A DNA stretch of 64,000 nt from Micromonospora cremea (GTDB lineage: Bacteria; Actinomycetota; Actinomycetes; Mycobacteriales; Micromonosporaceae): the NCBI RefSeq assembly GCF_900143515.1, contig NZ_FSQT01000002.1, forward strand, positions 434,001 through 498,000. Reading direction: 5' to 3'. Of the stretch, positions 46,056 to 51,650 are shown in pieces. Each line of letters opens with the position of its first letter. Position 1 is the first letter of the stretch. The notes under the pieces were generated by a model. The model made no database searches. It saw only the letters and a list, made by a program, of their open reading frames with translations, and had not been told where the DNA came from. A program made the position numbers and the translations under genes.

Positions 46056-46087
46056 GGCCAGCCACCCCGGTGTGCGGGTGACTGGCC
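46056..46087 (-). terminator. displaced native terminator of rnpB
   Basis: GGCCAG-C-CACCC (46056-46067) pairs with GGGTG-A-CTGGCC (46076-46087) with one mismatch. It ends 3 nt from the 37-bp repeat at 46091, just where a terminator of minus-strand rnpB would stand if the element were absent. Confidence 0.6.
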
Positions 46088-46090
46088 TGC

Positions 46091-46127
46091 TGGGCGACGG
46101 ACGAGTCAACCTGTACGCCGGATTCTG
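46091..46127. mobile_element. attachment site, left end of island (att repeat 1)
   Basis: 37 bp beginning TGGGCGACGGACGAGTCAAC, identical to 51216-51252 except A at 46108 against G at 51233. It duplicates the 3' end of rnpB. Confidence 0.85.
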
Positions 46128-46136
46128 AACACTACA

Positions 46137-46856
46137 AGCGCTCTGAGCTGCGGAAATACCCCTGATCATGAGTGTCAGGGCGTGCCCCAGGGCGCCACCC
46201 TCATGCCCGGATGGGAAGAGGTTGTCGATGGCCTGCCGGGTTCGTTCCTCGCTCGCCGGCATGAGGTGCGTATACACCCGGAGGGTGAAACCGGGGTCGG
46301 TGTGTCCGAGGTAGGACGCCAGGGCCTTGATGCTCTCCCCCGCGTTTAGCAGCGCCGAGGCGTAGAAGTGCCGTAGCGCGTGCATCCCTGTGGCGCGGTT
46401 CGGAACGATGCCGGCCGCAGCGACCGCGGGACGCCAGGCGCGTTCCTCGAAGGTGCTGCGGCGGATCGCGGCGTTCCGGGTAGTGGTGAGGACCAGGGCG
46501 ATAAGTCCGCTGGTCCTCGCTGGCCGGGTCCTCCCACGGAAGTGTTATCTCGACGGGCGGGAACCGATTGAGGTGCGCTCGAAGTGCTCGCGCGACGGAG
46601 CCGGGCAGCGGCACTCGGCGGTCCCGGTCAGTCTTGGGCAGGCCGAATACCAGCCGGGAGCGAACGAATTTGACCTGGCGGACGACGTGCAGCCAGCCCG
46701 CGTCGAAGTCGATGTCATCGACGGAGAGACCGAGAATTTCGCCCTGACGGAGCCCGCAACCGGCGCCCAGGTCCACGGCCACCCGGTACCGCTCGGCGAA
46801 GGCAGGCAGCGCCACCACGAGAGTTGATCGGAGAGTTGACCAGACGTGCAGGCAGG
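46137..46856 (-). pseudogene. tyrosine recombinase (integrase) remnant
   Basis: The catalytic domain is recognisable: RYRVAVDLGAGCGLRQGEIL (first Arg), VDDIDFDAGWLHVVRQVKFV, PLPGSVARAL in one frame; after a shift near 46506 it continues as LIALVLTTTRNAAIRRSTFE, MHALRHFYASALLNAGESIK (HxxR), LGHTDPGFTLRVYTHLMP (His and nucleophile Tyr). All catalytic residues survive, but the frame is broken and the N-terminal arm- and core-binding domains are missing, cut off beside the pentapeptide gene. The second frame has no stop before the epoxide hydrolase gene, passing through the att repeat. Confidence 0.85.
46176..46194. repeat. arm-type integrase sites, left end
   Basis: CAGGGCGT (46176-46183) and CAGGGCG (46188-46194), same octamer as the cluster at the right end. 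Confidence 0.5.
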
Positions 46857-46876
46857 CGATCCCGGGCTGAAGCCTC

Positions 46877-48133
46877 TCAACGCGTACGGACCGAGGTCGG
46901 CCGAGCCACCCCCGACGGCAGGCGAGTTTTGGCATCCAGGTTTGCGTCAATCAGTTGCTCGGTGGTTAGGCCAAACACATCGCTCAGATTCACACCGCGC
47001 AGGTCCGCGTCGCGCAGATCCGCGTCGCGCAGGTATGCGCCGCGCAGGTCCGCGTCGCGCAGGTCCGCGCCGAGCAGCTTCGCGCCGCTGAGGTCTGCGT
47101 CGCCCAAGTCTGCGCCGTTGAAGTGCGCGTTACCCAGGTGCGTGTCGCGCAGGTCCGCGTCGCTGAGGTCCGCTTCGCGCAGGTCCGCGCCGCCCAGGTC
47201 CGCTTCGCGCAGGTCCGCGCCGTCCAGTTGTGCGGCGGTCAGGTCCGCGCCGCCCATCGTCGCGCCGCCCATCGTCGCGCCGTTCAGCTGTGCGCCGGAC
47301 AGGTCGCTGTAGTTCAGGTTGGCGTCGACCAGGTCCGCGTGGTCCAGCAGCGCGTAGCTCAGGTCCGCGGTGCTCAGCGATGTGTCGCTTAGGTCTGCGC
47401 CAGTCAGGTTTGCGCGGCTCAGGCTCGCGCCGGTCAGGACCGCGCCACTCAGGTCCGCATCGACCAAGTGGGCATTGTCCAGCCCAAGCAACGTGCCGGA
47501 CAGGTCTAGGCGGCGATTGCCTTCAGCCTTCGGACTGGGCCGTCGGGCCAGGACAACGATCGCTGCGAGCACGTCTGGTGTAGACGAGGCCACCCTTTCC
47601 GGGCGCCCTTCTACGGGCCAGGGGGCGGCGTGGGTACGCACGAATGCGCAGAGTACTTCGATCACCGTGGGTTCGTCCGCCGATGAGTCCCGCATCAGAC
47701 GTTCGAGGGCGTAGATGCCACCGAGACGGATGGATAACTTGTTGTTACCCTCTTGGCCGAGCTGGTCGATCCCGGTACTGAACCTCTCCGCGACCTGGCC
47801 CTGGATCGCCACCTGCTGCTGTTTGCGGTTCGCGTCGTTGGTGTAGAACAGCCCCGCCGCGACCAGGAGCACCGACACGATGCTGCCCACAGCCGTAGCA
47901 CTGGTGCGCCAATCCGGCCTGACCGCCACGGTGATCGGCTCTCGGGCACCACCCAGCGAAAGCCGCTGCTCGCCGCGGCGCAAACGAGCCCGACCGGCCG
48001 TCATCAAGTCCGCATTAGCAACGCGTCGCAGCTGGCGGCGCGGTCGAGGCGGATCAGCAGACGGTGTTTGCCCACTCGCCCAGCCCTCCCGCGCCGCACT
48101 CCATCGATCACGGAAACTCGGCACGGTGTCCAT
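46877..48133 (-). CDS. membrane-anchored pentapeptide-repeat protein
   Basis: About 418 residues. A basic N-terminus, one membrane segment (SATAVGSIVSVLLVAAGLFY) and a helical linker (IRLGGIYALERLMRDSSADE) precede more than 30 A(D/N)LxX pentapeptides (for example ADLSGAVLTGASLSRANLTG), forming a right-handed quadrilateral helix. This fusion is a family of actinobacterial membrane pentapeptide proteins; some soluble members mimic DNA and protect gyrase, but the membrane form has unknown function. The ATG at 48133 has GGAG 7 nt upstream; an in-frame start at 48199 is possible. Main intact cargo of the island. Confidence 0.85.
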   Translation of the reverse strand: MDTVPSFRDRWSAAREGWASGQTPSADPPRPRRQLRRVANADLMTAGRARLRRGEQRLSLGGAREPITVAVRPDWRTSATAVGSIVSVLLVAAGLFYTNDANRKQQQVAIQGQVAERFSTGIDQLGQEGNNKLSIRLGGIYALERLMRDSSADEPTVIEVLCAFVRTHAAPWPVEGRPERVASSTPDVLAAIVVLARRPSPKAEGNRRLDLSGTLLGLDNAHLVDADLSGAVLTGASLSRANLTGADLSDTSLSTADLSYALLDHADLVDANLNYSDLSGAQLNGATMGGATMGGADLTAAQLDGADLREADLGGADLREADLSDADLRDTHLGNAHFNGADLGDADLSGAKLLGADLRDADLRGAYLRDADLRDADLRGVNLSDVFGLTTEQLIDANLDAKTRLPSGVARPTSVRTR

Positions 48134-48572
48134 TGGACAGCTCCAGCGCCACCAGGGCCAGGGCGGATTGTCGGAGCTAGTGCGACCACCCGACGACATC
48201 TACCGAGCGATCCCACAAGGGGCGTGGTCCTTGATATCGGGGCGGTTTCGATCACGGGGAGTATGAAGCGGCCCCGCCCACCCTTAGGGGCGGGCGGGGT
48301 GCTCCCTGTCCGGGCTGGATGCGGTTACAGGCGGTTCTTCACCGTGGTCTTCACGGTGCCGGCGTCCGTCGCGGTTGCCTCGCACGTCAGGCTCAATGCA
48401 TAGCGCGTTTAGCCCAGCAGCGGCGTCGTCATCGTGTCAGTTGACGGTCCCGCTCACCGCGTAACCGTTCTCGATCTCCCACGTCTCCTGCAGCACCGGC
48501 GAAGCCTCGCCGGGTGGAATCTCCCGGCCCTGGGCTCAAGCGGGCCGGGCATGTGGCGGGTCAGACCCTGCC
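48134..48572. other. gene-poor decayed stretch
   Basis: No convincing complete gene. On the minus strand, codons ending at TAA near 48326 read RYALSLTCEATATDAGTVKT and then TVKNRL before the stop, and a second short piece near 48440-48485 reads ETWEIENGYAVSGTVN before TGA. These look like unconnected scraps of element genes. Confidence 0.4.
48274..48301. terminator. GC-rich hairpin
   Basis: CCCCGCCC (48274-48281) pairs with GGGCGGGG (48294-48301), with CCC/GGG continuing into a TTA loop. Confidence 0.6.
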
Positions 48573-50668: not shown

Positions 50669-50971
50669 CTAGGCGACCTTGTCCGGGCATTCATGCTCCC
50701 AAGTCAGCGACGCGGGCGCCTGAGCCATCGTCGGTAGATCCAGAAACCCGCAGTTGATCCCGCGCAGCCCCAGCGCCCTGCGTGCGACGGCGAGGAGCAG
50801 CTTCTCGAAACGGTCCCAGCCCAGCCGCAGGTCGAGGTCCTCCCCGGGGGGTCGATTCCCGGGCAAACCCGGCACCGGTAGCGTCTGCAGGTTCTGGTCT
50901 GACTGCAGCGGCAACCATGGTCCGGCCACGGTCCGATTCTCCCACGGAGGCACCAATCGGCAAATCTGCAC
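50669..50971 (-). pseudogene. remnant of a nuclease-like N-terminal domain
   Basis: The middle reads LRLGWDRFEKLLLAVARRAL followed by GLRGIN, the opening helix pattern of restriction-endonuclease-like domains that precede NTPase modules in some actinobacterial defence-like proteins. The catalytic part expected next is absent; the frame ends after SLTWEHECPDKVA. Best read as a truncated gene. Confidence 0.4.
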
Positions 50972-51091
50972 CTCTGCCTAGGGGTGGCGGCCCGCACGGT
51001 GTGCAAGACCTCCGCCACCGACAGCCGTCTCCGCTGGCGGGCAGCATAGACGGAAACTGCCCGACCCCCGACCCCCGCTACCGAGCAAGAT

Positions 51092-51129
51092 CAGGGCGTT
51101 CTCAGGGCGTCAGGGCGTATTCAGGGCGT
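51092..51129. repeat. arm-type integrase sites, right end
   Basis: Four direct copies of CAGGGCGT at 51092, 51103, 51111 and 51122 (steps of 11, 8 and 11 bp), about 90 nt from the right att repeat and matching the pair at the left end. Confidence 0.6.
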
Positions 51130-51183
51130 CAAAAGTCGACCAGCGATGACCAACAAAGCCCATAGGCAACGGGCTATACGACG

Positions 51184-51213
51184 AGGTCGCAGCCTTGATC
51201 GAGGCTGCGACCT
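51184..51213 (-). terminator. rnpB terminator supplied by the element
   Basis: AGGTCGCAGCCT (51184-51195) is perfectly complementary to 51202-51213 with a 6-nt loop, 2 nt beyond the att repeat on the element side. Confidence 0.75.
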
Positions 51214-51215
51214 GG

Positions 51216-51252
51216 TGGGCGACGGACGAGTCGACCTGTACGCCGGATTCTG
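51216..51252. mobile_element. attachment site, right end of island (att repeat 2, inside rnpB)
   Basis: 37 bp beginning TGGGCGACGGACGAGTCGAC. It forms the 3' end of rnpB including the 3' strand of helix P1. Confidence 0.85.
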
Positions 51253-51650
51253 TGCGCGGCGCGTACCCCGAAGGGTGTGCGCCGGCGGCGGCCATCCATC
51301 TCGGCCTGCCGTTGCCGGCAGGCTCCAGCGGCCTACCCGCAGACATCGGGCGGGCAGCCCTCAAGCGTCTGCGCCGGGTCGTCATCTTGCGGTGACGGCC
51401 CTTACTTGGCCTTGCTCCGGGTGGGGTTTACCGAGCCACCCCGGTCACCCGGGGTGCTGGTGGGCTCTTACCCCACCGTTTCACCCTTACCGGCCCCGAT
51501 GGGGTCGGCGGTCTGTTTTCTGTGGCACTGTCCCGCGGGTCACCCCGGGTTGCCGTTAACAACCACCCTGCCCTGTGGAGTCCGGACGTTCCTCGGCGGT
51601 GGGCCAGAAGCCCGCCGACGCGGCCGCCCGGTCGACTCGTCCGTCGCGCT
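51216..51650 (-). ncRNA. rnpB: RNase P RNA (type A)
   Basis: About 435 nt on the minus strand. Conserved blocks in order: GAGGAACGTCCGGACTCC near the 5' end, GCCACAGAAAACAGACCGCC, GGGTGAAACGGTGGGGTAAG followed by AGCCCACC, and the 3' block CAGAATCCGGCGTACAGG. Helix P1 is formed by GACGGACGAGTCGACC near 51645-51630 and its complement at 51236-51221. A -10 hexamer TAGGAT (51659-51654) is placed for a start near 51650. Catalytic RNA of RNase P, which matures tRNA 5' ends. Its 3' end is the integration target of the island. Confidence 0.95.

Follow-up and report, generated by a model that had tools for sequence, protein, structure and literature searches.

A probable remnant of an actinomycete integrative and conjugative element at the 3′ end of the RNase P RNA gene of Micromonospora cremea

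RNase P RNA is an essential RNA enzyme, and the 3′ end of its gene, rnpB, was examined here in Micromonospora cremea as the insertion site of an integrative element. The window, i.e., the whole stretch of 64,000 nucleotides that was analyzed (contig NZ_FSQT01000002.1, positions 434,001 to 498,000), contains a complete rnpB at 51223–51639 on the minus strand, with the 3′ end at the left. Positions are those of the window unless a contig is named; our handles for genomes, contigs, and loci begin with G, C, and L, respectively. In Rfam scans, this gene matched the class A RNase P RNA model RF00010 with 280.8 bits over its full length (1–367), and it was the single RNase P RNA match in the whole genome. 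A sequence-only reading of the window had described 37-bp direct repeats at 46091 and 51216, one inside rnpB and the other beside a tyrosine integrase remnant. Both copies were found at these positions on the minus strand with one mismatch, and two matches were obtained in 0 of 100 dinucleotide shuffles. The element-facing copy of the attachment site (att), attL, at 51216–51252 (minus strand, 0 mismatches), comprises the final 30 nt of the rnpB match and 7 bp more, and according to the Rfam alignment it includes the 3′ strand of helix P1. The distal copy, attR, at 46091–46127 (minus strand, 1 mismatch) lies approximately 90 bp from the end of the integrase remnant. Ungapped extension lengthened the repeat to 42 bp (46086–46127 and 51211–51252, 95% identity). 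The 37-bp repeat was therefore present as described, but the block common to both ends measured only approximately 26 bp, the outer bases not always being shared; this block, hereafter the core, reads CCGGCGTACAGGTCGACTCGTCCGTC in the genus and has host-specific letters elsewhere.

The integrase remnant was frameshifted and N-terminally deleted. Compared with an intact 407-aa relative, one piece (46504–46827, minus strand) covers residues about 191–298 with 66% identity, a second piece in another frame (46215–46502, minus strand) covers residues about 299–394 with 78% identity, both match PF00589, and residues 1–190 were unmatched. The intact relative is found in G074 (L055), its protein cluster P0001 (100%) comes from Salinispora arenicola, and the close named relatives of the integrase belong to Micromonospora. 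Directly after the rnpB 3′ end, a terminator-like hairpin apparently brought by the element is located at 51181–51216 (minus strand; 50-nt fold −24.7 kcal/mol, z −4.3), followed by direct repeats of the GACGCCCTG type at 51090–51139 (minus strand), which were read from the letters and are possibly arm-type integrase sites. The putative native rnpB terminator-like hairpin lies on the far side at 46050–46090 (minus strand; −33.8 kcal/mol, z −4.9). The GC content of the insert was 67.6%, versus 71–72% in the flanks.

The sequence-only reading had proposed a search for an uninterrupted rnpB site in related strains, and such a site was found in G004, a genome of the same genus. The rnpB of G004 is 96.5% identical to that of the window and leads, past the core, to a homologue of the hairpin that lies beyond the distal repeat of the window (86% over 73 bp, counted from the core on). 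After the hairpin and 200 bp of patchy similarity, the sequences agree again (87.5% over 855 bp) in the flank that carries the epoxide hydrolase gene, which in the window is the chromosomal gene past the element (44598–45821, minus strand; PF06441, 1.8e-40). Hence, the flank of attR comes after rnpB in G004: the order is conserved with indels of tens of bases, and 5.1 kb is missing. The left of the core in G004 corresponds to the rnpB side of the window and the right to the far side, which, judged from sequence comparison, is the bacterial attachment site (attB) expected for a crossover inside the core. Because G004 holds this uninterrupted site, the 5.1 kb was regarded as an insertion. G004 carries one core copy only, and is thus not a relative of the kind that would have refuted the sequence-only reading, free of the insert but with both repeats. 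A direct repeat consisting of the rnpB 3′ end and an uninterrupted site in a relative, the two marks of a gene-restoring insertion, were thus both present.

In three further pairs, the DNA past the distal core of one genome comes after rnpB in the other genome, namely, G065/G050 (85% over 607 bp), G012/G117 (82% over 608 bp), and G127/G045 (80% over 335 bp). Other candidates for empty sites, in the close relatives G124 and G066, were rejected, as approximately 1.6 kb of other DNA follows rnpB in G124 and approximately 1.2 kb with arm-like sequence follows it in G066. Neither a near-empty site in G118, where the hydrolase on the rnpB side has 73% similarity and is surpassed by a copy at another place in the genome (82%), nor multiple alignments through the core in G093, which may reflect common element arms, were counted. 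The G124 locus (L047, core offset about 1040) contains, after rnpB, a MOSC-like gene segment of approximately 1 kb, its name read from the letters; a degenerate core copy with 9 mismatches follows, and this is possibly an older remnant.

The arrangement recurred throughout the genus. Integrase matches at E ≤ 1e-40 were found in 71 of 151 genomes of the genus, and all 45 genomes with a match of at least 66%, the window's own genome included, were used for the count. The integrase gene (int) was located downstream of rnpB, on the same strand and within 30 kb, in 40 of the 45, while the chance expectation was about 0.2% per match; the suggestion that integrases of the same subfamily would be found beside rnpB was thus borne out. 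Among the remaining genomes, int and rnpB lie on different contigs in G042, G076, G078, and G102, which are uninformative, and int lies elsewhere in G018; an additional int fragment is located elsewhere in the genome of G122. Moreover, 73 rnpB downstream regions (72 relatives and the window) were read at 15–21 kb. A second core on the same strand was present in 31, an int relative of at least 55% in 28, and both in 26, while no core was found on the opposite strand in any of the 73 regions. A reversed control pattern of the core had no match in any of the 151 genomes.

Similar observations were made outside the genus. The position of rnpB was checked in 20 genomes with good integrase matches, 17 of which are from other genera. 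In 11 of the 20, all from other genera, int shares a contig and strand with rnpB at a distance of about 11–15 kb; the two genes are far apart in two (G018 and G218) and on different contigs in seven. In all 11 other-genus genomes with both genes on one contig and strand, the rnpB 3′ end of the host occurs a second time past int, with 0 mismatches in 22 bp in 10 of them and 1 in G214, though the letters of rnpB vary by host. The distance from int to a core copy was within 1.7 kb in 10 of 10 other-genus single elements. In G218, rnpB is located elsewhere than int (C1, 4516840–4518048; L242, L255; a 61–62% relative), and a 58-bp sequence after int recurs about 17 kb upstream with one mismatch.

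The type of the element was judged from gene content. Ten selected open reading frames from two elements, G068 and G125, were scanned against Pfam. The G068 element (17.3 kb) encodes RepSA (PF20199), FtsK_SpoIIIE (PF01580), a GntR regulator, and an integrase (Int; PF00589 and PF14659), and upstream of Int a 61-aa HTH_17 protein whose match to the excisionase model was just under the cut-off; G068 is the element in which the presence of an excisionase (Xis) was examined. The G125 element (9.9 kb) likewise encodes RepSA (PF20199), FtsK_SpoIIIE (PF01580), and GntR, with an Int that was recognized by tyrosine recombinase models. Subsequently, the first elements of 42 genomes, 30 of them longer than 8 kb, were surveyed with the G068 and G125 replication initiator (Rep) and transfer (Tra) proteins as queries, both source elements being included in the counts. 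Rep was matched in 27 of the 30 long elements (one match being a 49-residue fragment) and Tra in 25, while neither was matched in the 12 shorter elements, the window's among them. By predicted gene content, with Int and Xis near att, a RepSA-type initiator, and an FtsK/SpoIIIE transfer protein, the lineage has the makeup of actinomycete integrative and conjugative elements (AICEs). No RepSA or FtsK_SpoIIIE match was obtained between the window repeats (C2:480091 to C2:485216), and because Rep and Tra matches were lacking there, the element of the window was filed, on sequence grounds, as a remnant and not as an AICE. The earlier claim of an integrative element at the rnpB 3′ end consequently holds for the insertion, with the qualification that the element is a decayed remnant of 5.1 kb without Rep and Tra genes.

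Some of these elements occur in arrays. In G198, five follow rnpB in tandem, two of them with a broken int, and six core copies are spaced by about 16 kb; three cores were counted in G086 and three in G019. Some distal cores are followed again by an element-type arm, and elements thus accumulate. At least two GACGSCC motifs per 200 bp were found after rnpB in 28 of 31 two-core genomes, after the distal core in 5 of 31, and in 13 of 1183 background stretches. The same density was found after rnpB in 19 of 42 single-core genomes, which are likely to bear the scars of lost elements.

Taken together, 46128–51210 is almost certainly what remains of an AICE inserted by a tyrosine integrase into the 3′ end of rnpB. 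The two repeats, the uninterrupted site, the recurrent order of rnpB, core, element, int, and core, and the AICE-type genes of relatives can be read in the sequences compared. Int would have recombined the attachment site of the element (attP) with attB inside the approximately 26-bp block lying within rnpB. The upstream part of rnpB would have been kept in place, and the nucleotides gained from the end of the element would form the P1 3′ strand. The acquired 3′ end would then be followed by a terminator-like hairpin and arm repeats of element origin, and the original 3′ end with its hairpin would have ended up next to int, at the other extremity of the element. Later loss of rep, of tra, and of the first half of int would have produced the remnant, which is presumably unable to move by its own integrase. 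We infer that the crossover is the work of Int, that rnpB remains functional after insertion, that the hairpin terminates transcription, and that the arm repeats bind Int.

The pairing of helix P1 and the hairpin after rnpB were evaluated across loci. The 5′ partner of the P1 3′ strand was taken as the best match in 100 nt of the 5′ region, a choice that favors pairing; by this measure, 10–12 of 12 positions paired in 12 hosts, with 12 of 12 in the window. The hairpin is found at the rnpB-side position in most genomes of the genus that were read and is truncated at some loci. Fold z values below −2 against mononucleotide shuffles were obtained for 62 of 73 50-mers on the rnpB side and 18 of 33 on the distal side. 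Over 57 in-register loci, 16 truncated or shifted loci being left out, hairpin pairing was 82.9%, versus a mean of 76.3% and a maximum of 78.3% in shuffled sequences. As a strong T run is absent from most copies, the hairpin may serve in termination or as a palindrome bound by protein, and we lean toward termination. By their predicted structure, the elements deliver the rnpB P1 3′ strand and usually a terminator-like hairpin. The frequency of the hairpin at rnpB sites and its truncation at some loci would also suit an integrase whose real target is the palindrome, with rnpB being hit only as its neighbor. This is improbable, however, given that the common block of the 11 other-genus elements is inside rnpB, ending before the palindrome in G228, G259, and G271.

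It is still less probable that the mobile unit is a prophage or a phage satellite instead of an AICE. Distant tyrosine integrases do occur in phages of Gordonia, Arthrobacter, and a few other hosts (11 records, 29.9–33.2% identity), but no phage record exceeded 33.2% at E ≤ 1e-20 and no IMG/VR contig contained the exact 25-bp core. Moreover, the Rep and Tra matches in the long elements, together with the Pfam identification of RepSA in both elements sampled, argue for an AICE. The best integrase identity among plasmids was 46% (6 records).

The range of rnpB targeting was assessed by comparing integrase identity with the presence of a core. Among named loci, a core follows int in Pseudosporangium, Asanoa, Jidongwangia, Catellatospora, and Actinoplanes (three of four at ≥66%), and in Winogradskya at a distance of 3.2 kb. 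At integrase identities of at least 65.8%, a core was found downstream, within the available DNA, in 31 of 37 loci, some of which are the same place under two identifiers; of the other six, three have only 1.5 kb of flank with the core just past it, and L095, L096, and L104 have no core. At 54–65.8% identity, a core was found in 3 of 18 loci, about half of which have only 1.5 kb of flank, and below 54% a core-like match with 6 mismatches was found in 1 of 55, of which four have less than 1 kb of flank. Because the frequency of the core falls with integrase identity, rnpB targeting looks like a property of the Micromonosporaceae branch. On an integrase tree, however, the rnpB-targeting loci did not form one clean clade, and the tree gave no support to a single origin of this targeting: 7 label changes were counted, compared with a shuffled mean of 21.8, and 0% of bootstrap trees had a single change. 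The 109 rows of the alignment had been thinned to 65, rows with stops or fewer than 340 residues having been dropped beforehand. Among the tree labels, L060, L062, and L077 are marked as having no core only through a short flank and L071 only through a strict pattern, and the core is present in their genomes. A tRNA as target was rejected, with none found in 17 homologous integrase loci or in L226, L095, L096, and L225; another Rfam RNA as the target of distant relatives was likewise rejected, with none in 11 loci scanned, two of them being 72–74% relatives.

Several observations weigh against the proposed insertion of an AICE by an rnpB-specific integrase. G018, with a 73% integrase (C1, 6121121–6122305; L226, L253), carries it at another site, and the related named loci L095 and L096, with which G018 groups on the tree, have no core within 6 kb. 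The best boundaries for the G018 element are 21-bp repeats separated by 16 kb; they outrank several other chance-like repeats in length (the next being 17 bp) and look like the end of a protein-coding gene, and the 21-mer was not found in the stretches of L095, L096, or G102. Within the genus, 5 of the 31 two-core genomes have no int of at least 55%, and two int-bearing rnpB regions have no second core. In the additional pairs of uninterrupted sites, G117 bears an int fragment and both G117 and G045 bear arm-type repeats; consequently, the main element is absent there and the sites are not pristine. No excision or circle was seen: besides the lack of IMG/VR contigs with the exact 25-bp core, no plasmid matching the core plus the arm was found, and neither collection yielded an attP. 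Finally, three more core copies with ≤2 mismatches are present in the genome of the window (G000) and are not explained by the model.

These copies are located at C1:2468552 (L037), C2:3433983 (L039), and C1:220477 (L038), and a 31-mer match is located at C2:3452992 (L252). L037, L038, and L039 carry an element-type hairpin and arm repeats, are alike over about 160 bp, and have no rnpB sequence upstream. L037 looks, from its sequence, like an attP lying in the chromosome because its left side aligns at 77% with the distal end of the element in G130. The integrase near L039 adjoins tRNA-Lys, far from the core, and appears to belong to a separate element. As these copies imply that the sequence gets copied around, the distal repeat of the window could also be a stray duplicate of the rnpB 3′ end, produced by segmental duplication or recombination and adjoining the integrase remnant by coincidence; this was rejected as barely credible, since it is largely refuted by the recurrence of same-strand cores with int after rnpB, the second copies in all 11 other-genus genomes, the uninterrupted site in G004, and the element-type surroundings of the three dispersed copies. 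Core matches away from rnpB were also observed in G044, G066, G116, G111, and G122. Separately, L245 (G119:C1:2814500–2834300) contains at 9394–9753 a second full-length rnpB (267 bits, 360 nt) embedded among 30 same-strand tRNA genes in an array, which looks like a mobile tRNA array carrying its own RNase P RNA; two rnpB matches were also found in G039, G045, G048, and G108.

The rest of the insert of the window contains putative cargo. A pentapeptide-repeat protein of 440 aa is encoded at 46877–48199 (minus strand; PF00805, 2.6e-58), and its N-terminal 190 residues were matched in 2 of 42 elements tested, the window's own included. On the plus strand, two putative open reading frames of the frame list had no Pfam or PADLOC match: one of 207 aa at 48573–49196 with a membrane-anchor-like tail, and one of 295 aa at 49672–50559 with a signal-like start, repeats, and a membrane-anchor-like tail, these features being read by eye. 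No defence genes were found by PADLOC among five cargo reading frames. With no tRNA or tmRNA genes in the window, the insertion is not at a gene of either kind. A single open frame of 595 aa (44598–46385, minus strand) joins the C-terminus of the integrase, across the distal att, to the epoxide hydrolase gene; it is probably an accident of high GC content, and a fusion product from it is possible.

Gene-repairing integrases are usually described for tRNA or tmRNA genes. Here the gene specifies a ribozyme, in which the long-range helix P1 must be kept. A tentative and rather doubtful extension is that a conjugative lineage of Micromonosporaceae has specialized on an essential ribozyme gene, bringing a spare P1 strand and terminator, with P1 acting as a lock on host range: a P1-mismatched element would damage RNase P, and host range would thus be tied to ribozyme structure. 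If so, insertion could retune the 3′ end or level of RNase P RNA, and the dispersed attP-like copies could act as secondary docking sites. The findings raise the questions of how integrase specificity shifts between target genes, as in G018, a close relative at another site, and whether a host is restricted by target-RNA structure in the elements it can carry. Both the integrases and their att sites are possible tools for Micromonospora, Salinispora, and Actinoplanes, and rnpB downstream regions are worth searching for new AICEs and their cargo.

The sequence-only reading had called rnpB a rare attB. In the literature searched (open-licence full texts, with preprints and subscription papers outside), no report of rnpB as an attachment site was found, rnpB or RNase P RNA being mentioned there as a marker or promoter, in a list of RNAs, or in the title of a reference; but within Micromonosporaceae rnpB is a frequent target. 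Integrases of about 50% identity, mostly from Streptomycetaceae and Streptosporangiaceae, are homologous over nearly the full length, but differ in that a core-like match is present at only one of the 55 loci below 54% and no Rfam RNA was found in five 50–53% loci scanned. According to the available portions of PMC3218068 and PMC3364876, AICEs such as pSAM2, SLP1, pMR2, and pACPL resemble the lineage in having a tyrosine Int at one end beside att and in restoring the RNA gene into whose 3′ end they insert, and they resemble its relatives in encoding an Xis-like HTH_17 protein, a RepSA-type initiator, an FtsK/SpoIIIE-type transfer protein, and a GntR regulator. The portion of PMC3218068 available places the vast majority of tyrosine-integrase AICEs, pSLS-type elements excepted, in the 3′ end of a tRNA gene. 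In contrast, attB is here rnpB and not a tRNA gene, and the window's own copy lacks Rep and Tra. In the part of PMC4383910 available, an element restores a split RNA gene, and the regenerated gene and the displaced fragment mark its ends. Such RNA-gene-restoring elements, as far as described in the available parts of PMC4383910 and PMC12424338, share with the present lineage the restoration of a split RNA gene; unlike in those cases, the target here is a ribozyme whose P1 3′ strand must pair with the 5′ strand of the host. Gene-restoring insertion by a tyrosine integrase is a mechanism already known, and what appears to be new is rnpB as the target, together with its use across the family.

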